From NCBI RefSeq assembly GCF_015207255.1, contig NZ_JADEXG010000038.1:1-51464 (forward strand): a stretch of 51,464 bases of DNA, given 5' to 3'. Numbering within the stretch: position 1 is the first letter of the stretch; each line of letters starts with the position of its first letter. Of this stretch, positions 23,410 to 50,888 are shown piece after piece. The notes under the pieces were generated by a model. It did not search any database. It saw only the letters and a list, made by a program, of their open reading frames with translations, and was not told the origin of the DNA. The stretch comes from Vasconcelosia minhoensis LEGE 07310. GTDB taxonomy: Bacteria > Cyanobacteriota > Cyanobacteriia > Phormidesmidales > Phormidesmidaceae. A program made the translations under genes and the position numbers.

Positions 23410-25131
23410 ATGCTACGCCTAGAGAATATCAGCAAAATCTATCCGACTGGCGAAGTCCTCAGAGATGTGACCTGGGAGGTCAAAGCTGGCGATCGGATTG
23501 GCCTAGTTGGCGTCAACGGCGCGGGCAAATCGACCCAGCTAAAAATCATCTCGGGAGAAGTCGAGCCCACCTCCGGTCAGGTGGTGCGCCCCAACGGGTT
23601 GCATATTGCTTTTCTCAGCCAGGAATTTGAGGTTGATCCCAGCCGCACGGTGCGGGAAGAGTTCTGGACGGTATTTGCCGAAGCGAACGAGATTCAGAGA
23701 TCGCTCACCGAAATTCCCCAGCAGATGGAGGAAGCCGACCCTGACCAGCTAGAGCAGCTGATCCACCAGCTCGACCGCAAGCAGCGCCAGTTTGAGGCGC
23801 TCGATGGCTATGGGCTAGAAGCCAAGATTGAAAAGATTCTACCCGAGATGGGCTTCGACCCTGAAGATGGGGATCGCCTGGTCAGCGCCTTTAGCGGCGG
23901 CTGGCAAATGCGCATGGGGCTGGGTAAAGTACTGCTCCAGTCGCCTGACCTGCTGCTGCTCGACGAGCCAACTAACCATCTCGACCTGGAAACAATTGAG
24001 TGGTTGGAGACCTACCTCAAAGGGCTAACCACGCCGATGGTGATCGTCTCCCACGACCGCGAATTTCTCGACCGGCTCTGCACCCAAATTGTCGAAACCG
24101 AGCGGGGCGTTTCCACAACCTATTTGGGCAACTACAGCGCCTATCTGGCCCAGAAGGCCGAAAACCAGGCGGCTCAACTCAGCACCTACGAGCGTCAGCA
24201 GAAGGAAATCGCTAAACAGCAGATCTTTGTCGATCGCTTCCGGGCCAGCGCTACCCGCAGTACCCAGGCGAAGAGTCGGGAGAAGCAGCTAGAGAAAATA
24301 GAGCGAGTAGAGGCGCCGGTGGCGAATCTGAGATCGCTCCAGTTTCGCTTTCCGCCAGCCCCCCGCAGCGGGCGCGAGGTGGTTCAGGTCACCGATATGA
24401 CCCATACCTATGACGACAATATTCTTTTCTTGGGGGCAAACCTGCTGATTGAGCGGGGCGACCGGATTGCCTTCGTTGGCCCCAACGGAGCCGGGAAGTC
24501 TACCCTGCTGCGGCTGATGATGGGGCTGGAACAGCCCTCCGAAGGCCGGGTGGAAATCGGCTCTCACAACGTGATCCCCAGCTATTTTGAGCAGAATCAG
24601 GCCGAAGCGCTAGAGCTGACTAAGACCGTCATCGATACGATTCACGATGAGGTCCCCGACTGGAAGAATGAGGAAGTCCGAACCCTGCTGGGCCGCTTCC
24701 TCTTCAGCGGAGAGGTGGTCTATAAGCCGGTTTCGGCGCTGAGCGGGGGTGAGAAAGCGCGGCTAGCCCTGGCTAAAATGCTGCTTCAGCCCGCCAACCT
24801 GCTGATTCTGGACGAGCCAACTAATCATCTGGATATTCCAGCCAAGGAAATGTTGGAAGCAGCGCTGAAACACTATGACGGGACAGCGCTAATTGTCTCC
24901 CACGATCGCTACTTTATTTCTCAGGTAGCGAATAAAATCGTAGAGCTGCGAGATGGCGAGCTCAAGCTTTATCGGGGTGACTATCACTATTTCCTGGATA
25001 AGACGGCAGAAGCAGAAGAGAAAGCTAGGCTAGAAGCGATAGAAGCCGAAAAAGCTGAAAAAGCGGCTGCCAAACGCCAGAAACAGCGAGAAAAGCAGAA
25101 AGCGAAAGCGGCTTCCCAGAAGGCTGGCTAG
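23410..25131 (+). CDS. ABC-F family ATPase (ribosome-associated)
   Basis: This is a 573-residue soluble protein with two ABC ATPase domains and no membrane part. Domain 1 has Walker A GVNGAGKST (residues 34-42), signature FSGGWQMR and Walker B LLLLDEPTNHLD. Domain 2 has GPNGAGKST, LSGGEKARLALAKML and LLILDEPTNHLD. The interdomain linker (KQQIFVDRFRASATRSTQAK, SREKQLEKIERV) is the ABC-F hallmark that reaches the ribosomal tRNA sites. The tail is Lys/Ala/Glu-rich and coiled. ABC-F proteins such as Uup and EttA regulate or rescue translation. The subfamily is not certain. Confidence 0.93.
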   Translation: MLRLENISKIYPTGEVLRDVTWEVKAGDRIGLVGVNGAGKSTQLKIISGEVEPTSGQVVRPNGLHIAFLSQEFEVDPSRTVREEFWTVFAEANEIQRSLTEIPQQMEEADPDQLEQLIHQLDRKQRQFEALDGYGLEAKIEKILPEMGFDPEDGDRLVSAFSGGWQMRMGLGKVLLQSPDLLLLDEPTNHLDLETIEWLETYLKGLTTPMVIVSHDREFLDRLCTQIVETERGVSTTYLGNYSAYLAQKAENQAAQLSTYERQQKEIAKQQIFVDRFRASATRSTQAKSREKQLEKIERVEAPVANLRSLQFRFPPAPRSGREVVQVTDMTHTYDDNILFLGANLLIERGDRIAFVGPNGAGKSTLLRLMMGLEQPSEGRVEIGSHNVIPSYFEQNQAEALELTKTVIDTIHDEVPDWKNEEVRTLLGRFLFSGEVVYKPVSALSGGEKARLALAKMLLQPANLLILDEPTNHLDIPAKEMLEAALKHYDGTALIVSHDRYFISQVANKIVELRDGELKLYRGDYHYFLDKTAEAEEKARLEAIEAEKAEKAAAKRQKQREKQKAKAASQKAG

Positions 25132-25151
25132 CGTCAGCTTTGCCAAGGGCT

Positions 25152-25177
25152 CTGTTCAAACCCTCTGTTCAAACCCT
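25152..25177. repeat. Perfect 13-base tandem duplication
   Basis: CTGTTCAAACCCT is present twice head-to-tail, at 25152-25164 and 25165-25177, with no mismatch, 20 bases after the ABC-F stop codon. Confidence 0.8.
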
Positions 25178-25194
25178 TGAGTCGTTGAACCAAT

Positions 25195-25223
25195 TTGACA
25201 AATCTAAAGTTCGATCAGATAAG
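25195..25223 (+). promoter_or_regulatory. Candidate promoter upstream of gpmI
   Basis: A consensus TTGACA at 25195-25200 is followed after 17 bases by GATAAG, which matches four of six positions of TATAAT. It would give a leader of about 350 bases before gpmI. Another AT-rich minus-10-like box (TAGAAT) lies near 25274. Confidence 0.3.
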
Positions 25224-25577
25224 TAGATATACCTAATTAGTAGTTTTAATCTATCTATGTAAAATACCTGTGTAGAATACTGAGTAAGCCGTCGGAGACC
25301 CAGTTTTCTCTAAGATTTTTTCTACGAGGAGTCGCTGGCCAGTCGTAGCAGTGCTTTACGACACCGAACTGTGCAAAATTTTATCCCGAACCCTTTCCCG
25401 TTTTTATTAAACTTTTTTAACATTTTTATTTGCGGCTGCAGGTCAATTTGACACGCAGGAATTTTGCTTAGAAGTCGCGACTCTGCATAACCCGTCTCAT
25501 CGTTGGGTATTTTTACCGCCGGTAGTGGCCCAACTGCCAAGACATTTGTCCACATCGCTGAGGATTCCCTGAAAAAT

Positions 25578-27182
25578 ATGGCACATGCGCCTATTCACCC
25601 CATGGTCCTCGTCATTCTAGACGGCTGGGGCTATCGAGAAGATACCAACGGCAACGCCGTCACATCGGCTCAGACGCCGGTGATGGATAGCCTTTGGTCA
25701 GCCTATCCGCATACGCTAATCAGTACTTCTGGTAAGCACGTCGGCCTGCCAGAAGGGCAGATGGGCAACTCGGAAGTCGGACATCTGAATATTGGCGCTG
25801 GCCGGGTCGTACCTCAAGAGCTAGTAAGAATTTCTGACGCGGTTGAGGACGGCTCGATTCAAGAAAATCCGGCCCTCTTAGAAGTTTGCCAAAAGGTGCG
25901 GTTCAAGCAGAGTAAGCTACACCTGATCGGGCTGTGTTCTGAGGGTGGCGTGCATTCCCACCTCAACCATTTGTACGGCCTGGTTGAAATGGCTAAGGCC
26001 CAGGACCTTTCTGAAATCTGTATCCATGCGATTACCGACGGACGCGATACGAAACCCACTGACGGCGAACGAGTGATTGCAGAACTGCAAGCCTACCTAG
26101 ATCAGGCTGGCGTCGGCCAGATCGTCACCCTGAGCGGTCGCTACTATGCCATGGATCGCGATCGCCGCTGGGATCGGATTGAAAAGGTTTATCGCGTCAT
26201 GAGCGAAGCGGGTGATGGGCAGACGCACTCGGCTCTAGAGGCGCTGAAGGACGCTTACGAAGCGGGGATCACAGACGAATTTGTCGAACCGGTGCGGCTT
26301 GCGCCCGGAACGATTGAGCCTGACGACGGCATCATTTTCTTTAACTTTCGCCCCGACCGGGCCCGGCAGCTGACCCAGGTGCTGATCGATCCCGACTTTG
26401 ACGGGTTTGAACGAGAGCTGATCGCACCGCTGGCTTTTGTCAGCATGACCCAGTACGATTCCTCGTTTCCAGTCAGGGTGGCCTTTGAGCCCCAAGACCT
26501 GACTAAGATTCTAGGCGAAGTCATTGCCGAACATGGCCTCAAGCAGTTTCGGACGGCAGAGACTGAGAAATATGCCCACGTCACCTATTTCTTTAATGGC
26601 GGTTTAGAAGACCCCCTGCCGGGCGAAGACCGCGAGCTGGTTCCCAGCCCGATGGTAGCGACCTATGACAAAGCGCCTAAAATGTCGGCCCATAAGGTAA
26701 CCGACGTTGCGATCGCGGCCATCCAGAAACGGCAGTATTCGTTCGTTGTGATCAACTATGCCAATCCCGATATGGTTGGCCACACCGGTAAGATTGGCGA
26801 GACTGTAGATGCTTTGGAAACCGTAGATACTGAGCTGGGTCGCCTGCTAGAGGCGACCGTTAGCGTCGGTGGTAGTACGATTATTATTGCTGACCATGGT
26901 AATGCCGAGTACATGTGCGACGAGCAGGGCCGCCCCTGGACGGCACATACGACCAATCCAGTACCGTTCATTCTGGTCGAGGGCGAAGGGCTGAAGGTGC
27001 CCGGGCATGGCACTGAAGTCAACCTGCGGGAAGACGGTCGGCTGGCCGACATTGCCCCGACTATCCTGGAGATTTTAAAGCTGCCGCAGCCAGCGGAAAT
27101 GACCGGGCGCTCAATGATTTTGCCGGCGGCAGCTGAGGTTCGGGCGAACCGAACGCCGGTGCAGGTTTCGATGCAGCGCTAG
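25578..27182 (+). CDS. gpmI: 2,3-bisphosphoglycerate-independent phosphoglycerate mutase
   Basis: This enzyme interconverts 3- and 2-phosphoglycerate in glycolysis and gluconeogenesis, using two Mn ions and a phosphoserine. The chosen ATG gives 534 residues, close to the family norm. VLVILDGWGYRED is the first metal motif, GQMGNSEVGHLNIGAGR holds the catalytic Ser, ITDGRDTKPT and NFRPDRARQL are substrate loops, and IIIADHGNAEYM is the second metal motif. A frame start at 25503 adds 25 unrelated residues and is not favoured. Confidence 0.97.
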   Translation: MAHAPIHPMVLVILDGWGYREDTNGNAVTSAQTPVMDSLWSAYPHTLISTSGKHVGLPEGQMGNSEVGHLNIGAGRVVPQELVRISDAVEDGSIQENPALLEVCQKVRFKQSKLHLIGLCSEGGVHSHLNHLYGLVEMAKAQDLSEICIHAITDGRDTKPTDGERVIAELQAYLDQAGVGQIVTLSGRYYAMDRDRRWDRIEKVYRVMSEAGDGQTHSALEALKDAYEAGITDEFVEPVRLAPGTIEPDDGIIFFNFRPDRARQLTQVLIDPDFDGFERELIAPLAFVSMTQYDSSFPVRVAFEPQDLTKILGEVIAEHGLKQFRTAETEKYAHVTYFFNGGLEDPLPGEDRELVPSPMVATYDKAPKMSAHKVTDVAIAAIQKRQYSFVVINYANPDMVGHTGKIGETVDALETVDTELGRLLEATVSVGGSTIIIADHGNAEYMCDEQGRPWTAHTTNPVPFILVEGEGLKVPGHGTEVNLREDGRLADIAPTILEILKLPQPAEMTGRSMILPAAAEVRANRTPVQVSMQR

Positions 27183-27282
27183 CTCACCCCTGGGCAAATC
27201 GCTGACCGGCTGCTCATCGGCTGCGGTAGGATGGACGAGACGATCTTTAGCCCCGCTTTCAGCAGCGGACGATAAAAAGCCT

Positions 27283-27516
27283 ATGCTGCCAACTGCTGTC
27301 AAAATTGTCTGGGCTGCTTCGGCGGTCGGGCTAGCCATCTTAGTCCTATTACACAGCCCTAAGGGTGACGGTCTGGGCGCTTTGGGCGGCCAGGCTCAGC
27401 TTTTTACCAGCACCAAGAGTGCCGAAACGACGCTTAACCGCGTTACTTGGACATTGACAATCCTGTTTATGGGGCTGACGGTTGTGCTCAGCGCCGGCTG
27501 GCTGCCGCAGGGTTAG
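27283..27516 (+). CDS. secG: Preprotein translocase subunit SecG
   Basis: SecG is the small accessory subunit of the SecYEG translocon. The 77-residue protein has two membrane helices (IVWAASAVGLAILVLLHSP and TWTLTILFMGLTVVLSAG) joined by the family loop GDGLGALGGQAQLFTSTKSAE. It lies 100 bases after gpmI on the same strand, an arrangement that suggests cotranscription. Confidence 0.96.
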   Translation: MLPTAVKIVWAASAVGLAILVLLHSPKGDGLGALGGQAQLFTSTKSAETTLNRVTWTLTILFMGLTVVLSAGWLPQG

Positions 27517-27547
27517 CAATCGTCTAGACAGCGCCGTTTAGCGTCGC

Positions 27548-28900
27548 TTAAAAAATAAACATTAGGGATAACGACCCGCCTTCATCGGCTGGACTAAGCT
27601 GGACTTCGCGAATAAATTCCCGAAAGAAGAAGCGTCGTTCGGATTCCGATAGGTCGAACCAAAACTGCGGAATTGAGGCTGTTTGAGCAGTTTCCTGGAG
27701 ATTGACCGGCGGTAGCTGGGCAAGTTTCTGTCGGACTGTCGCTATTTCAGTCTGAAGTCGATAGGCCCGCAGCTCGGCAGTCTGCGCGTCGAGGATATTG
27801 TTGCTTACGAGCTCGGGTAGCTGGGCGAGCACAGCCTGCTGTTGCTGCAGCCGCTCTAGGAGGCTGGCTTTGATCCCCGCCATCGGTGCGGCGGCAATCT
27901 GAGCCACGGCCTGGGGCAGCTGGGCACAGATTGCGCCAATAGTTTGCTGAAGGACGGTCGAATACGCGATCGCGCCACATTTGGGCTGACGGGGGCAGGC
28001 GACCGGGCGCAGGTAGAGGTAGGACTGGGACTGTCGTGGCTGGGTGACTTGGTTAACCCGAAAGCTCGACCGGCAGCTTTGGCAAACCACAAGACCGGCT
28101 AGGGAATAGGCCACACTCGCTGTGCGGCTAGAGAACTGGCGATTGCGTCGGCGCAGGCGGTCGATCTGAGCCGCTTCTTCTCGACTCAGTAAGGCTGCAT
28201 GGGTGTTGTGGATCAGCCCGTCTGAGTAGGCCGTGTCGCCTCGATAAACGGGATTCTCAAGCCAGCGTTGGCCGGTCGAAACCGCTATCTGCTTGCTATA
28301 TCGCTGGGCGATGTGCCGGACCGCGGCCCGTAGCGAACCGTACAGCAAGTAATGTTCAAAAAACGCTTTTACTATGGTGGCGCTGCCGCGGTCGAGGACA
28401 TAGTGACCCTGGCTGCGCCGGTAGCCGTAGGGCGCTTTGCCCGGGGGCGCTAATCCTTTGAGCCGGTTGCGGGCATGACCCTGACGGATTCGGCGCTGCC
28501 GCTGGGCCGCCTGAATTTCGTCAGCGACCTGCAGCAGCTTCACTTGAGAGCGATCGCGCGGGTCATCCGCTGCCCGATCGGGCGACTCAATTGTGATCAC
28601 AGCCATCCCCAGCGCCTCAATCGCAGACAGCCGCTGAGTCACGCTTGCCAACGTCTCACCCAGTTCGTCCAGCCGCCGCAGCAACAGCCGGTCAGGAGCT
28701 GCCTGACCGGCAGCGGCTAGCAGCTGCTGGAGCTGAGGCCGTTCATCAGTCGGCGGACTGCTGGCTAGGTCGGCATAAATTTGCTCAATCTCCCAGCCCT
28801 GTTGGGTTAAAACATCCGCCCAAGCCTGAGCCGAACTGAGATTGGGATTGGGAGATGATTCCAAAAGCGGATCGCTGTAGCAATAGAGAATGGTCTTCAT
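27548..28900 (-). CDS. Serine recombinase-like protein with degenerate catalytic centre
   Basis: This 450-residue protein has the order of a large serine recombinase: an N-terminal resolvase-like domain (residues 1-140), a recombinase DNA-binding domain (about 150-235, GLAPPGKAPYGYRRSQGHYV), a zinc ribbon (CQSC then CPRQPKC near 290-325) and a coiled-coil C-terminus. The expected YARVS becomes LYCYS: Ser9 is kept but the arginine is Cys7. The DRLxR helix becomes LDELGE (Asp78, Glu79, Glu82), so all three active-site arginines are absent. No flanking element or att-like repeats are seen, and codon use matches its neighbours. This resembles a conserved cyanobacterial XisF-like protein rather than a mobile-element integrase. 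Confidence 0.82.
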   Translation of the reverse strand: MKTILYCYSDPLLESSPNPNLSSAQAWADVLTQQGWEIEQIYADLASSPPTDERPQLQQLLAAAGQAAPDRLLLRRLDELGETLASVTQRLSAIEALGMAVITIESPDRAADDPRDRSQVKLLQVADEIQAAQRQRRIRQGHARNRLKGLAPPGKAPYGYRRSQGHYVLDRGSATIVKAFFEHYLLYGSLRAAVRHIAQRYSKQIAVSTGQRWLENPVYRGDTAYSDGLIHNTHAALLSREEAAQIDRLRRRNRQFSSRTASVAYSLAGLVVCQSCRSSFRVNQVTQPRQSQSYLYLRPVACPRQPKCGAIAYSTVLQQTIGAICAQLPQAVAQIAAAPMAGIKASLLERLQQQQAVLAQLPELVSNNILDAQTAELRAYRLQTEIATVRQKLAQLPPVNLQETAQTASIPQFWFDLSESERRFFFREFIREVQLSPADEGGSLSLMFIF

Positions 28901-29041
28901 TCGGTCTAAAACCCTGTGCAAGTTTAAGAAACACCTGCTGAAACGGTAGCAAAGTCGAATAGCCCGCTAAGGTTAAGACAACTTTGACGGAGTCATTTGG
29001 GCTGGTTTATTTTCTGCGCTTCAGCCTCTATGCTGAGATCT

Positions 29042-29950
29042 ATGATGACTAAGCAGCGTCGAACATCTATCTTGTCGGTTCTGATGGCCACACTGGTGCT
29101 GGGGCTAGCCGTAGGCTGTAGCCAGGACACCGGCGATCGCGTCATCAGCTCAACCCCCGACCAGCCTGGGGACGCTTCTGAAGAAGCCGATGGGGAAGCC
29201 CTGGGGTCGTCTGCTGGGGAAGTCGAAGCGTCTGCCGAAACCGATGAAACCACCGAAACCGATGAAGCGGCTGAAACGGTAGAGGAGAGCGCGGCTGAAT
29301 CAGCGCCGCCGATTGCGCCACATCTGGGCGATAAGCCGATGACGCAGCCCGACCTAGCTATTGGTTCATCCCAGGCGGCTTCCGTTCCCGCCACGGCACC
29401 GCCACGGCAGACCTGCGAAGCGCAAACCCAGGCAGCGATGAACGCCTGTGCCGAGGCTAACTATGACAAAGCCGATGATTATCTCAACCAGGTCCACCAG
29501 GGGCTCAAAAGCAATCTGACCCAGGCAGCTCAGGTTCAGCTGGCTGAGGCCGAGCGCGCCTGGGTTAGCTTTCGCGACCAGAGCTGTGAGTTTGAACGAA
29601 GTCAGTTTGAAAACGGCTCGATCGCGCCGCTGGTCTACTACAGCTGCCTGGAGGCCCTAACCGACCAGCGAACGGCTGAGCTGAAGCAAACCGAGCTGCC
29701 CGAATTGGCCTATGCCCAGGCCGATCAGCAACTCAACCAGGTCTATCGCAACCTCAAAGATAGGCTTGGCCCTGCGGCCCAGGACGGGCTAACCGAGAGC
29801 CAGCTGGCCTGGATTGCGTACCGAGATGCGAACTGCGTTTTTGAAGACCTTCATGCTAAGGCGTTGATTAGCGAAACCCAGTGTCTGGCGCGGATGACTG
29901 AGACCCGTACCGACCAGCTGCAAGCGGCATTGGAGCAGCGCCAGCTCTAG
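29042..29950 (+). CDS. Lipoprotein with two LprI-like (DUF1311) domains
   Basis: This 302-residue lipoprotein has a lipobox AVGC (Cys26). An acidic Glu/Thr/Ala repeat linker covers about residues 35-90. Two tandem domains then follow, each with a Cys pair: LNQVHQGLKSNLTQAAQVQL with WVSFRDQSCEFE and CLEALTDQRTAEL, then LNQVYRNLKDRLGPAAQDGL with WIAYRDANCVFE and CLARMTETRTDQL. These match the lysozyme-inhibitor LprI N-terminal family. Periplasmic protection against lysozyme-like enzymes is known for LprI; the role here is inferred. Upstream ATG (29030) and TTG (28997) starts are possible. Confidence 0.82.
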   Translation: MMTKQRRTSILSVLMATLVLGLAVGCSQDTGDRVISSTPDQPGDASEEADGEALGSSAGEVEASAETDETTETDEAAETVEESAAESAPPIAPHLGDKPMTQPDLAIGSSQAASVPATAPPRQTCEAQTQAAMNACAEANYDKADDYLNQVHQGLKSNLTQAAQVQLAEAERAWVSFRDQSCEFERSQFENGSIAPLVYYSCLEALTDQRTAELKQTELPELAYAQADQQLNQVYRNLKDRLGPAAQDGLTESQLAWIAYRDANCVFEDLHAKALISETQCLARMTETRTDQLQAALEQRQL

Positions 29951-30035
29951 CTTAGCTGGCCAATTCAGGGTTAGGATTGCAATAGGCTCCAGAACTAGGC
30001 CAGAACGAGGCCAAAATGAGAATCGGTGGGATCCC

Positions 30036-30704
30036 TTGGCCTACTTTACTGAGAAACCAGACGACGCCCGGCAGTATGCAGCTGCCCCCGAGCGCAATCA
30101 GCAGCCTATCTTAGAAGTGCTTCAGCAGCAGCTGCCCCGATCGGGAACGGTGCTGGAGGTGGCCAGCGGAACCGGGCAACATGCGCTATTTTTGGCACCG
30201 CGTCTGGCTCCCCGGCACTGGCTGCCCAGCGACCCCAATCCCGTCCTGCGGCAGAGCATTCGGGCCTGGGCAGCCACCGCACCCACACCAACACTGCATC
30301 CGCCTTTAGACCTGGATGTGCAGGCGACGAGCTGGCCGGTCGAAGATGCGCGACTGACCGCAGGGGTTGGCCCGGTTGAGCTCCCACCCATCTGCGCGAT
30401 CGCGGCCATCAACCTCATCCATATCTCCCCTTGGGCTGCTTGCCTGGGCCTCTTAGCCGGAGCGCAGCGGATCTTGCCCCCCGGCGGCATCCTCTATCTC
30501 TATGGCCCTTACCGGCAAAACGGGCAGCATACGGGCCCCAGCAATGCGGCTTTTGACGCGATGCTCCAGCAGCAGAACTCAGACTGGGGTGTCCGCGACC
30601 TGGAAACGGTACAGGCCGACGCCGCCAAGCGGGGATTGCAGCCGCAGGCCGTAATTCCCATGCCAGCCTACAATCTTTCGGTAATTTTTACTCGGACGAG
30701 CTAG
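30036..30704 (+). CDS. DUF938 SAM-dependent methyltransferase-like protein
   Basis: This 222-residue cytoplasmic protein belongs to the DUF938 family. It has a methyltransferase-type motif I (TVLEVASGTGQHALFLA), then HWLPSDPNP, INLIHISPW and GGILYLYGPYRQNGQHT. The start appears to be TTG at 30036 (MAYFTEKPDDARQYAAAPER), with GGTGGG upstream; no in-frame ATG precedes it. The acceptor substrate is unknown. Its stop overlaps the converging YbjQ gene by four bases in a CTAG palindrome. Confidence 0.85.
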   Translation: MAYFTEKPDDARQYAAAPERNQQPILEVLQQQLPRSGTVLEVASGTGQHALFLAPRLAPRHWLPSDPNPVLRQSIRAWAATAPTPTLHPPLDLDVQATSWPVEDARLTAGVGPVELPPICAIAAINLIHISPWAACLGLLAGAQRILPPGGILYLYGPYRQNGQHTGPSNAAFDAMLQQQNSDWGVRDLETVQADAAKRGLQPQAVIPMPAYNLSVIFTRTS

Positions 30705-31027
30705 GCCAAACTAATGGCTGTACCCGTCGCGGTAATCAGCATCAGCACGCCGGTTTCGTCAAGGTTGATCGTATCGGTTTTGATCTGAATGCCAATCACC
30801 GCATCCGCACCGAGCTGGCGAGCGCGATCTTCGAGTTCGCGTAGGGCATCTTGCTGGCCCCGCTCAAAGACGCGCTCGTAGGAGGCCGTACGACCGCCCC
30901 AAAAGTCGCGAATGCTGGCGAAGAAATCACGGAGCATATTGCTGCCGTAGACAACCTCGGCGGTGACAATACCGCGGTAAGCCTGAATATTTTTTCCCTG
31001 AATAAAGTCAGTAGTTGATAAAATCAT
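30701..31027 (-). CDS. YbjQ/UPF0145 family protein
   Basis: This 108-residue protein reads GKNIQAYRGIVTAEVVYGSN, FWGGRTASYERVFERGQQDAL and LGADAVIGIQIKTDTI, the standard pattern of the YbjQ family, which forms a pentamer and is sometimes labelled heavy-metal-binding. No biochemical function is firmly known. It is divergent from the TPR protein gene with a 45-base gap. Confidence 0.92.
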   Translation of the reverse strand: MILSTTDFIQGKNIQAYRGIVTAEVVYGSNMLRDFFASIRDFWGGRTASYERVFERGQQDALRELEDRARQLGADAVIGIQIKTDTINLDETGVLMLITATGTAISLA

Positions 31028-31072
31028 CAGTCTGGCTACAGTTGTGCAATTTCAATCTTAGGAGGTTAGGCC

Positions 31073-32263
31073 GTGCTTAGACCGATAGGCGTATCGACAT
31101 GGCTGCTCAGCGGTATGGGAAGCGCTCTTGTAGCGCTGACGCCAGTGTTCACGCCAGCCCTGACGACGGCAGCTGAGGCGACTGAGCGATCGCCCATAGC
31201 GGCGGGTCACCCCCCGATGGTCCTAGCCCAGGCCAGTACCGACCATCTCTCGGAGCAGCAGAAGCAGCGGCTAAGCGAACTGCTGAACGCGGCCCAGGAG
31301 CACATTGATGCGACCGACTTTGCTGGGGCGATTGCCTTCTATCAGCAGGCCCTGCAAGTCAACCGAGCGGACCCTCGGCTCTATTCTGGGATTGCCTACC
31401 TGCACGCTCGTGAGGGCAACTTTGACTCGGCAGCTGAATACTATCGGCAGGCGATTGAGCGTGAGTCGCGCAATCTGCCTTTCCGCTATGGGCTAGCCTA
31501 CAGTCTCTTTCAAGCAGAGCGCTATCGCGAAGCTGCCTCTGCCTACCGCGACCTGCTCGAAATTGACCGGCGGCAGGCAGAGGCCCAGATTGGCCTGGGC
31601 GGCAGTCTGCTGCGGCTAGAAGACGAAGACGGGGCGCGGCAGGCTTACGAAGCAGCCGTTCGAATTGACCCAAACAACGCCCAGGCCTACGAAGCGATTG
31701 GCATGCTCCATTTCAGTCAGGAAAACTATGACGAGGCCCTGCGAGCGCTAGAGCGATCGCAACAGCTAGATGACAGCCGAGCTAGCGTCTACGCAGCTAT
31801 CGCCGAAATTTGGCTGATCCGAGACCAGCCGGGTCGAGCACTGCCCCAGCTCCAGCGAGCCGTCCAGCTCAATCCTCAACTGTCTGAAGCGCAGTTTCAG
31901 CTGGCCGAAATCTTACGCGCTCAGGGAAATCAGTCAGCTGCTTTGCAGCATTATGAACAGGCGGTCGAATATCAGCCCGACCTGACGCCTGCCCAGGCGG
32001 CCCTGGGCGAAATGCTGCTGGCCCGGGAGCAGTATCTGCGAGCGGTCCTGGCCTACCGTCAGCTCAGCCGCGTTCTACCCCAAGATCCCGGAGTTCGCTA
32101 CAACCTAGCTTTGGCCCTTTGGGGGCAGGGTAATGCTCAAGCCGCGCTGAATACGGTAGAACAGGCGCTGAATCTGTATCAGCGGCAGGAGGATGAGGGT
32201 GGGGTGACCCGAGCCGAAGCGCTGATCGAAGTCTGGCGGCAGGAGGTCGATAAAAATCGCTAG
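31073..32263 (+). CDS. Exported TPR-repeat protein
   Basis: This 396-residue protein has an N-terminal signal peptide or anchor (about residues 1-35). From about residue 60 to 370 it is an array of roughly nine tetratricopeptide repeats with the expected spacing, for example GAIAFYQQALQVNRADPRLY, EAASAYRDLLEIDRRQAEAQ and ALQHYEQAVEYQPDLTPAQA. It starts with GTG behind a GGAGG site. TPR arrays mediate protein-protein contacts; envelope assembly or photosystem assembly roles are common in cyanobacteria, but nothing specific is visible. Confidence 0.88.
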   Translation: MLRPIGVSTWLLSGMGSALVALTPVFTPALTTAAEATERSPIAAGHPPMVLAQASTDHLSEQQKQRLSELLNAAQEHIDATDFAGAIAFYQQALQVNRADPRLYSGIAYLHAREGNFDSAAEYYRQAIERESRNLPFRYGLAYSLFQAERYREAASAYRDLLEIDRRQAEAQIGLGGSLLRLEDEDGARQAYEAAVRIDPNNAQAYEAIGMLHFSQENYDEALRALERSQQLDDSRASVYAAIAEIWLIRDQPGRALPQLQRAVQLNPQLSEAQFQLAEILRAQGNQSAALQHYEQAVEYQPDLTPAQAALGEMLLAREQYLRAVLAYRQLSRVLPQDPGVRYNLALALWGQGNAQAALNTVEQALNLYQRQEDEGGVTRAEALIEVWRQEVDKNR

Positions 32264-32354
32264 ACTAGATTGTTGAACCCATCATCTGAGCTAGGTCAGC
32301 CCGATTATCGCCGCCCCCGATGGTGTCAGACTCCTGCTTGCCCTGGTTGCCGGG

Positions 32355-34736
32355 GTGGGGTTAGCGCTGGCCTTTCAACTCCTGCTGACTAATTTGGGCA
32401 TTGCCCTAGGGCTGACATTGCTGAAGCTGACCCCGCAGCCCTCAGCCCCTATTGCCGAGTCTCATAGGGAATCCCAGTCAAAGGCTGCCGGTTCCAAAGT
32501 AGGACTGCTGGCTGGGCTAGGAGGGCTGCTGACGGTCAACACAGTGCTTTTTGCCAGCTGCTTTTTGGCGGTGAAATTCAGCGCCCTGCGAGGCGCGTTA
32601 GCCGGGGCGGCCCTGGGCAGCATGATCTGGTCGGCCTATCTGCTATTACTCGTCTGGGTAAGCTCTACGGCCATTGGATCGCTGTTTGACACGCTACTCG
32701 GTGCCGTTGCTAAGCTATTTCGCAATCTGCTGGGCGGCCTTAAGTCCGCGATCTCGCCTGATCCCTCCGATTCCGCCGAGTTATCATCACTCAATGAAGC
32801 GGTAGGGTCTCAGCTGCAAGCAACGCTAGCGGCTTTAGAGTCCAGCCGCCAGCTGCTGGCAGCCCAGACGGCTGAGCTATCGTCCGCTCCCAGTCATGAG
32901 GCGGTCAGCCCCGATATCGTGCAATACAATCAGCTGATTGATGTGCTCAAAGCGGCTACTTCTAACCCGGGGTCCCTTAATTCGCCTAACGATCCGCTGA
33001 ACCATCCTTCCGTTAGCCCATCTAGTGGCCCGTCTATCGAAGCAGATGACGCACCAGCGACTTCACCCTCTTCCGGCCTCTTTTCTCGGCTCAGGCAGCT
33101 TGATGCCAGCGCGCTGATGCAAACCGCTCTAAACCGCCTCGACCTTTCAGAGGAGGATATTAAAACGCTCTGGCAGCAGACTCAGCAGTTCGTCGCCGAG
33201 AGTCGCTCCTCTGAGTCGTCAAATGACGCTTCAGAGGAGACTGCATCAGCGCAAACTGCGGATTTCAGCATGGTTCGACTGGAGCTAGAGAACTATCTCA
33301 CGACGCTGCCCGCAGATAGGTTTCAACCAGCGGAGTTCGAGGCCGAGTTTCGCGACCTGCTCTACGACCCAGAGGCCGAGCCAATGGCAGTTCAGGCTCA
33401 GCTAGCTGAGCTTGATAGCGCTGATTTCGCGACCATTCTGGCCCAGCGACAGGATATTGCGCCAGTACAGCAGCGGCAGATTGTGGGCCGGCTGACGAAC
33501 GTTTATAAAGACGTACTGGACGTTTTGGAAGCAGACACAGCTGCGGCAAAGATGGATCTGACCGACGAGATCGCGACCCTCCAAGATAAGCTAGCTACCT
33601 ACTTTCTGTACACCAATACTGACAAGCTAACCGTCGAAGCCATTCAGCCTAAGCTGGAATCATTGATCGAGAATTCCGATCGGCCCTTAGCGCATTGGCA
33701 GGCTCAGTCGCCCTCACTTGATCTAGGTTCAATTGAAGCCATTTTACAGCGGCGATCGCGCCTGAAACCTAACCAATCGGCGGCGCTGCTCGCCGAATTG
33801 CAAAGCGCTTGGCAGCGACTTATCGGCGAGGAGTCCGCAGCAGATGAATCCCTCTCTCAAACAGTAGCCAACACCATCCAGCAGTTTTTTAGCGACCTGG
33901 AAGGGCCTTTATCTATTGAGGATGTTAAACCACGGCTGCTGACCTTTCTAGGGAGCGCGCTGTCTGGAATCGGTCGGCAGGCCGACAAAGTGGATTGGGG
34001 CAGCGTTGCCCAACAGCTCCGTCCGTCCCTGAAGCTACCTGATAAGGAGATCGAATCGCTAGTCCATTGGCTCGCTGAACGCTGGCCACAGCCCCGGCGT
34101 TGGTCAGTGCGAAAAGCGCTGAGGCAGGCCAAAACCCAAACCCAATCGGCCGTCAGCCAGGCGATGTCCCAGGGCAAATCCGTCATAGAGGCAATCCCAG
34201 CCGATCTTAATGGGGCTTCAGACCCACCCGATTTGCAGCTGTTCCAGCTCACCCAGCAGCTTGAAGCCCTGCTTGACCAGGCGGAGACGGGATTAGCCGA
34301 CCTCGGTAAAACGCTGCGCTCGGCGGCTCGCTACAGCAACTTTGACCAAATGGCCGGTCAGGCCCTTGATACTCTTCGCCATCGGCTGCAAGCGCTAAAC
34401 CCAGAACATTGGACTGAGCAGCTACCCGACTCGGTATCGCTGCCTGAATTCTTTGAACCGCTAAAACAGCGGCTAGAATCGACCCAGCGACGGCTTTCTG
34501 ACCAGATTGAAGAAATTCAGGCGCAGGCTCTAGCAGAAGCGAGGTCGCTGCGATTGGCTGCTCAGCAGCGGGCAGACCGCGTTCGGCGGCAGGTCGCCAC
34601 GGCAGCCTGGTGGGTATTCGTGATTGGGCTCACGTCAGGCCTTTCCTCAGCGATAGCAGGCGGCCTAGCGAGTGCCGACCTGAGCCAGTGGCCAAATCTT
34701 CTGGCACTGTGGTCAACTATGGTTTCACCTCAGTAA
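32355..34736 (+). CDS. Large membrane-anchored helical protein, function unknown
   Basis: This 793-residue protein has three hydrophobic segments near the N-terminus (about residues 2-22, 47-73 and 76-110) and one near the C-terminus (about 752-780). Between them is a long, mostly helical soluble region rich in Ala, Gln, Leu and Ser, with coiled-coil-like stretches. No catalytic motif is recognised. Start choice is unusual: GTG at 32355 leaves the first helix incomplete, while the open frame upstream continues the hydrophobic run (LLLALVAGVG) with no ATG. The 3' end overlaps the converging glycosyltransferase gene by 20 bases. Confidence 0.7.
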   Translation: MGLALAFQLLLTNLGIALGLTLLKLTPQPSAPIAESHRESQSKAAGSKVGLLAGLGGLLTVNTVLFASCFLAVKFSALRGALAGAALGSMIWSAYLLLLVWVSSTAIGSLFDTLLGAVAKLFRNLLGGLKSAISPDPSDSAELSSLNEAVGSQLQATLAALESSRQLLAAQTAELSSAPSHEAVSPDIVQYNQLIDVLKAATSNPGSLNSPNDPLNHPSVSPSSGPSIEADDAPATSPSSGLFSRLRQLDASALMQTALNRLDLSEEDIKTLWQQTQQFVAESRSSESSNDASEETASAQTADFSMVRLELENYLTTLPADRFQPAEFEAEFRDLLYDPEAEPMAVQAQLAELDSADFATILAQRQDIAPVQQRQIVGRLTNVYKDVLDVLEADTAAAKMDLTDEIATLQDKLATYFLYTNTDKLTVEAIQPKLESLIENSDRPLAHWQAQSPSLDLGSIEAILQRRSRLKPNQSAALLAELQSAWQRLIGEESAADESLSQTVANTIQQFFSDLEGPLSIEDVKPRLLTFLGSALSGIGRQADKVDWGSVAQQLRPSLKLPDKEIESLVHWLAERWPQPRRWSVRKALRQAKTQTQSAVSQAMSQGKSVIEAIPADLNGASDPPDLQLFQLTQQLEALLDQAETGLADLGKTLRSAARYSNFDQMAGQALDTLRHRLQALNPEHWTEQLPDSVSLPEFFEPLKQRLESTQRRLSDQIEEIQAQALAEARSLRLAAQQRADRVRRQVATAAWWVFVIGLTSGLSSAIAGGLASADLSQWPNLLALWSTMVSPQ

Positions 34737-50747: not shown

Positions 50748-50888
50748 ATGACTACAGAAATTATCGCTTTAAAACCAAAGAGACCCGGAGACTACGCCTA
50801 TCGCAAGCATCCCGTATTGCTGCTACCTTCCGGTCCTGACAAGATTTGGGCGTTGCGATCGCGTAGTTCCGAGTCAGCTACAGCATAG
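50748..50888 (+). CDS. Possible small protein, 46 residues
   Basis: An ATG frame encodes MTTEIIALKPKRPGDYAYRK followed by HPVLLLPSGPDKIW and a short polar tail. It fills most of the gap between two minus-strand genes and shows no membrane segment. The ribosome binding site is poor. I include it only as a candidate; no homologue comes to mind. Confidence 0.25.
   Translation: MTTEIIALKPKRPGDYAYRKHPVLLLPSGPDKIWALRSRSSESATA

Follow-up and report, generated by a model that had tools for sequence, protein, structure and literature searches.

A class-wide cyanobacterial homologue of large serine recombinases with replaced catalytic residues

Is a gene with the domain order of a large serine recombinase (LSR), in which the residues of the active site have been replaced, a recombinase in decay or a protein that has been kept for something else? 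This question is raised by the gene at positions 27548-28900 (minus strand) of the 51,464-nucleotide stretch of the Vasconcelosia minhoensis LEGE 07310 genome that was analysed here as a whole (the window). The open reading frame is unbroken over 450 codons, with its ATG at 28900 and its stop at 27548, in agreement with an earlier interpretation made from the letters alone (the sequence-only reading), which had described the gene as undamaged. It lies among genes of ordinary chromosomal, housekeeping appearance, including those that we take, from their translations, to be gpmI, secG, pyrB, and a gyrA-like gene. The window also holds a small bacterial signal recognition particle RNA at 50779-50875 (minus strand; Rfam RF00169, 66.4 bits).

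Protein architecture and the residues of the active site

The LSR layout with zinc ribbon and coiled coil, recognized in the sequence-only reading, was borne out by domain and structure analyses (Table 1). The Pfam Resolvase N-terminal and Recombinase domains were found above their cut-offs in the 450-aa protein, and the Pfam zinc ribbon model was recognizable below its cut-off (18 vs 25.3 bits). Among the four zinc ribbon cysteines, Cys273, Cys276, and Cys302 are present in 122/122 orthologues and Cys308 in 120/122, with a gap in the remaining two. The AlphaFold2 model, for which 47 orthologues served as input, has a mean pLDDT of 91.6 and contains the helical pair expected of the coiled coil. 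The best solved matches in a structure search with this model were LSRs, headed by 4kis_B (Z 16.6, 283 aligned residues, rmsd 5.1 Å). The order Resolvase, Recombinase, zinc ribbon, and coiled coil is thus present, with the zinc ribbon as a sub-cut-off Pfam match. The acidic residue of the XisF "AEFES" motif is Gln in the window protein and in 81/122 orthologues.

Table 1. Coordinates of the recombinase homologue and its parts in the window; residue counts refer to the 122 orthologues and, for actives, to the 22 presumed active LSRs.
Feature	Position	Strand	Basis
Gene of the LSR homologue with replaced active site, 450 aa plus stop	27548..28900	-	ORF, Pfam, homologue search
Residues 1-120, former catalytic domain	28541..28900	-	Pfam Resolvase; serine recombinase fold
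Tyr8, slot of catalytic Arg8	28877..28879	-	Tyr 117/122; actives Arg 22/22
Asp10, slot of catalytic serine	28871..28873	-	Asp 80, Asn 20, Glu 13 of 122; actives Ser 22/22
Glu79, slot of Arg68	28664..28666	-	Glu 101, Asp 15, Arg 1 of 122; actives Arg 22/22
Glu82, slot of Arg71	28655..28657	-	Asp 86, Glu 17, Arg 0 of 122; actives Arg 21/22
Residues 121-148, linker helix (alpha-E equivalent)	28457..28540	-	Model helix 119-147
Residues 149-255, recombinase DNA-binding domain, highest conservation in the protein	28136..28456	-	Pfam, identity
Residues 256-330, zinc ribbon, Cys273, 276, 302, 308	27911..28135	-	Pfam, orthologue alignment, model
Residues 331-450, coiled-coil hairpin and C-terminal tail	27551..27910	-	Model helices 340-366, 372-395; invariant residues

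The catalytic positions were read from two sets of sequences. The orthologue set (n=122) comprises 114 sequences from phylum-sample genomes and eight from a second search, leaving out L035 and L040 (the same genes as L043 and L055), L117 (no catalytic domain), L123 and L128 (broken), and L126 (an open frame with an insertion); L129-L133 and L135 were kept outside it as presumed active enzymes. The joint alignment holds 40 replaced-site proteins and 22 presumed active LSRs, of which 21 are from the class and one is from elsewhere in the phylum; these actives are 21 of the 25 XisF-type loci together with L135, taken without the near-copies L133 and L136, the fragment L154, and the odd L155. In the joint alignment, site 8 is Arg in 22/22 actives and Tyr in 36/40 replaced-site proteins, and site 10 is Ser in 22/22 actives and Asp (29/40) or Asn (5/40) in the replaced-site proteins. 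Likewise, the Arg found at site 79 in 22/22 actives gives way to Glu (25/40) or Asp (12/40), and that found at site 82 in 21/22 actives to Asp (21/40) or Glu (11/40).

The assignment of the serine slot depends on the register of strand 1, which a first, gapped MAFFT run left undecided and which a second MAFFT run with a higher gap penalty, together with structure, settled. By gap-free alignment of strand 1 on the invariant Tyr6, the slot of Arg8 is occupied by Tyr8 and that of Ser10 by Asp10. The structural register, read at the first aligned pair of each alignment range, pairs residue 1 of the model with residue 1 of gamma-delta resolvase and with residue 3 of both PhiC31 and TP901-1, and residue 2 of the model with residue 1 of Sin. 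If the catalytic serines are, as we take them to be, residues 10 in gamma-delta, 12 in PhiC31, 12 in TP901-1, and 9 in Sin, these offsets place all four at model residue 10. The sequence-only reading had reported the catalytic serine as kept in Ser9 and its preceding arginine as Cys7. Both assignments are shifted by this register, which comes from the joint alignment and the structural first pairs: Ser9 is not the nucleophile, the arginine slot is Tyr8, and the loss is more complete than had been claimed. Ser9 falls in the variable slot of gamma-delta Val9, and residue 9 varies in the family (Thr 57/122, Ser 36/122). Its placement of Glu79 and Glu82 at the positions of gamma-delta Arg68 and Arg71 held in the alignments, in which no alternative arginines fill the replaced positions.

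The protein therefore has Asp10 in place of the strand-1 serine and Tyr8, Glu79, and Glu82 in place of the arginines equivalent to 8, 68, and 71. Single catalytic residues are restored very rarely among the 122 orthologues (Arg8 in none, Arg82 in none, Arg79 in L122, and Ser10 in L099), and the full catalytic set is regained in 0/122. The substitutions are family-wide and not limited to this genome, and the recurrence of the same replacements across the class is more than chance and is not local decay. Given these replacements, the loss of strand exchange proposed in the sequence-only reading would be the natural expectation. Acidic residues occupy all three of sites 10, 79, and 82 in 75 orthologues, two of them in 40, and one in seven. 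Conservation exceeds the catalytic-domain median at sites 8, 79, and 82, foremost at 8 and 79, and slightly so at site 10; these ranks are approximate and include a few mostly-gap columns. The equivalent of Arg45 is kept as Arg54 in 119/122 orthologues; Asp44 and Arg54 are retained in the replaced-site family and conserved in the actives too, so both may be purely structural. The acidic pocket may reflect a lost affinity for the DNA backbone or a new ligand site.

Distribution, ancestry, and selection

A profile of 47 orthologues searched against 388 genomes of the class (E<=1e-40) matched 240, spread over 35/43 families. A single match was found in 231/240 bearing genomes, and among the nine genomes with several matches, G066, G387, G430, G439, and G559 carry pieces of one gene. 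At this threshold, family f20 (63 genomes of 1.6-3.7 Mb), genus g59 (26 genomes), and genus g144 (seven genomes) gave no match; in relatives of g59 and g144, full-length or truncated copies persist. The gene is thus dispensable in some lineages, as seen in f20 and g59. The presence of the gene does not track the HIP1 palindrome (GGCGATCGCC), as the genomes of g144 carry 424-1169 copies each and none of seven was matched, and those of g56 carry 4-24 copies and all six were matched. In the phylum sample beyond the window's class, only weak matches at the level of general LSRs were found (best 1.7e-14).

Plasmid and phage records gave no match at E<=1e-5. A viral origin was considered and set aside, with just two viral contigs matching at 23% identity, and so was a role as a defence system, with no PADLOC match; the PHROGs matches were to general integrase and invertase families. 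In the tree, the replaced-site proteins fall on one side of a branch supported by an SH-aLRT of 99, with a stem length of 1.89 changes per site; this is a quick tree, rooted for drawing only and subject to long-branch warnings, including the joining of the replaced-site clade to the distant active L135. In the window's own genome, a short second serine recombinase-like stretch (G000:C155:378-785) matches positions 1-142 of the XisF model at 87.9 bits.

The gene is under purifying selection, with dN/dS of 0.05-0.23 in 23 close pairs. The mean identity among the 40 replaced-site proteins is 0.36 in the catalytic domain and 0.64 in the recombinase domain, and among the 22 presumed actives it is 0.35 and 0.28, respectively. 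The recombinase domain is the more identical of the two in 780/780 replaced-site pairs vs 36/231 active pairs, counts that are descriptive because pairs are non-independent and the actives mix subfamilies whose target sites probably differ.

Truncated forms and gene neighbourhood

Open frames that lack the catalytic domain are found in five genomes (G438, 340 aa; G446, 342 aa; G537, 294 aa; G574, 327 aa; G014, 347 aa). The first four belong to family f26 and G014 belongs to family f6, where its congeners G076, G080, and G093 carry full-length genes, so the catalytic domain has been lost at least twice. The retrieved upstream flanks of the truncated genes hold no catalytic-domain remnant. A catalytic-domain query from a G014 congener matched 0/5 truncated genomes at E<=0.01, a search that could miss a separate domain if highly diverged, and 6/6 control genomes, the weakest at 3.2e-10. 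The two comparable truncated pairs have dN/dS of 0.17 and 0.11, the second near synonymous saturation. The start codons of all the truncated frames are predicted ones, and L178 and L179 have an additional small deletion inside the recombinase domain. The f26 drafts G582, G592, and G595, whose copies are cut off or degraded, stand outside the truncation count, and further partial copies occur in G477, G555, G559, G601, G603, G607, and G624. At G603:C1:2868381-2869689, the catalytic half and the DNA-binding half lie in two overlapping frames, by a frameshift or as a split gene.

The sequence-only reading had proposed to compare orthologues at the same locus; gpmI and secG recur at no other fetched locus, and a different neighbour, a VOC-superfamily gene (Pfam Glyoxalase), recurs. 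A shared set of housekeeping neighbours was accordingly rejected, with gpmI and secG at the window's own locus only and about 30 loci represented by a flank of only ~1.5 kb. Among the other window neighbours, the ABC-F gene recurs at six other loci and the LprI-like and TPR genes at one each. At 53/122 loci, and at 54 with L119, added by hand, the VOC gene is found no more than 700 bases upstream of the recombinase gene and in the same orientation. Of these 53 genes, 27 end within 30 bases of recombinase codon 1, and ten of the 27 overlap it, by 4 bases in nine and by 1 base in one. The overlapping loci (L006, L028, L029, L052, L073, L081, L083, L089, L095, and L096) come from several distant families. 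In 28 aligned VOC proteins, His8, His51, and Glu116 are invariant, and we presume that they resemble a metal triad. In family f13 (L108, L109, L114, and L127), a distinct gene that we call gloA-like lies directly downstream on the same strand in place of the upstream VOC gene. In the window's genome, the single VOC match lies outside the 1.5 kb upstream of the 27548-28900 gene.

An orthologue of the upstream VOC gene was found in 211/388 genomes (E<=1e-25). An obligate partnership was rejected, as g144 has the VOC gene without the recombinase and many g147 genomes have the recombinase without the VOC gene; since the presence of the two is not strictly linked, the pair looks like an old, often split operon. 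A motif search in 71 non-redundant regions upstream of the gene or its operon, compared with five shuffled controls, yielded no conserved site. The palindromic motifs scored 45.7 (controls <=45.3) and 62.9 (controls <=59.6) at two widths, and the free motif scored 57.6, within the shuffled controls (<=75.7). Autoregulation is therefore unsupported. Only short repeats were found in the scanned interval 24500-32500.

Possible roles and comparison with known systems

The protein is probably a captured LSR of the XisF kind that has lost catalysis and now serves as a fixed chromosomal, non-recombining DNA-binding protein. The computed support consists of the replacements, the separate clade, the wide and mostly single-copy spread, the purifying selection, the shifted constraint, and the losses of the catalytic domain. 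The proposal of a domesticated paralogue in the sequence-only reading gains from these results, as the protein is conserved, chromosomal, set apart from XisF, and has kept the half that presumably binds DNA. Such a recombinase would have been captured early in cyanobacterial history, would have lost the catalytic serine and three arginines as the gene became fixed in the chromosome, and may have been inherited mainly vertically. Judging from the roles of LSR domains, the recombinase domain and zinc ribbon would bind one conserved DNA sequence and copies would pair through the coiled coil. The protein would then act by occupying or bridging DNA, as a regulator or structural protein, with no cutting. 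A protein that occupies or bridges a conserved DNA site appears to be the most economical reading. Where it is kept, the former catalytic domain may still have some function, as conservation of the pocket above the median is not required by pure DNA occupancy.

That conservation also bears on the possibility that the catalytic domain has been rebuilt, with Asp10, Glu79, and Asp/Glu82 forming an acidic binding pocket for a metal or nucleotide that serves sensing or new chemistry. The three acids shared by most orthologues, the conservation of sites 8, 79, and 82, and the retention of Asp44 and Arg54 would fit such a pocket. However, site 10 is Asn in 20/122 orthologues and barely over the median, five sampled genomes tolerate loss of the whole domain, and Asp44 and Arg54 are conserved in actives too, so a rebuilt pocket is considered unlikely. 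It is somewhat less likely still that a class-wide binder of a conserved site senses a metal or metabolite through the acidic pocket and, in many lineages, has a link to the upstream glyoxalase-fold enzyme. The protein might also act in trans as an accessory factor of an active recombinase, for example by directing or blocking excision of the XisF type. The two share ancestry, with 47/47 members of A1 matching the XisF model (best E 8.6e-44), and both kinds co-occur in genomes such as G042 and G030. XisF above its cut-off was nevertheless found in 10/145 genomes vs 240/388 for the replaced-site protein, a count outside which the commoner, weaker XisF-like enzymes fall; many bearers would therefore have no XisF partner, and this role is very unlikely.

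A functionless, decaying relic would account for the split or stopped frames in L123, L128, and some other genomes, and for the several clades without a match. It is highly improbable in view of dN/dS of 0.05-0.23, class-wide invariant residues, and the low dN/dS (0.17 and 0.11) of truncated forms that are themselves intact. Recombination through an unorthodox active site, such as a neighbouring Ser or Thr, has in its favour that residue 9 is one or the other in 93/122 orthologues. That residue is off the nucleophile register and, by strand alternation, expected on the opposite face; Arg54 alone among the tested arginines is widely kept, and the catalytic domain is dispensable in some genomes, which leaves continued recombination scarcely credible.

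If the protein is a non-recombining DNA-binding protein, cyanobacterial genes labelled "recombinase" or "XisF-like" may in fact encode it. It would represent an old and widespread case of an LSR that lost its chemistry and kept its DNA-recognition half, in which naturally truncated forms set one half apart from the other. Should it bind a conserved site, it would be a chromosomal regulator or structural protein that has gone unrecognised in a group of central ecological importance. Excision recombinases of the XisF type in cyanobacteria and host-recruited recombinases are treated in passages of two papers (PMC4874684, PMC8987985) that make no mention of a catalytically dead LSR family. Among open-access literature surveyed by titles and abstract openings, none describes this protein.

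By fold, the protein is a member of the serine recombinase superfamily that fails the defining features of active members and the XisF equivalog cut-off. It shares its domain order with XisF, the excision recombinase of the fdxN element, whose model NF041201 matches residues 37-434 (P0001; 135 bits). At 135.3 bits, however, the match is far under the 375-bit cut-off, the catalytic Ser and Arg are missing, the protein belongs to a separate clade on a long stem, and the sequence near the window gene gives no sign of an excisable element. With the large serine integrases (A118/Listeria, SPbeta-type, Bxb1, PhiC31, and TP901-1), it shares the fold of recombinase domain, zinc ribbon, and coiled coil, whereas its identity to long LSR chains is 10-15% and it lacks the catalytic residues. 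The catalytic domain of gamma-delta/Tn3 resolvase has the same fold and shares the equivalents of Tyr6 and Arg45, but its Arg8, Ser10, Arg68, and Arg71 are replaced in the window protein.
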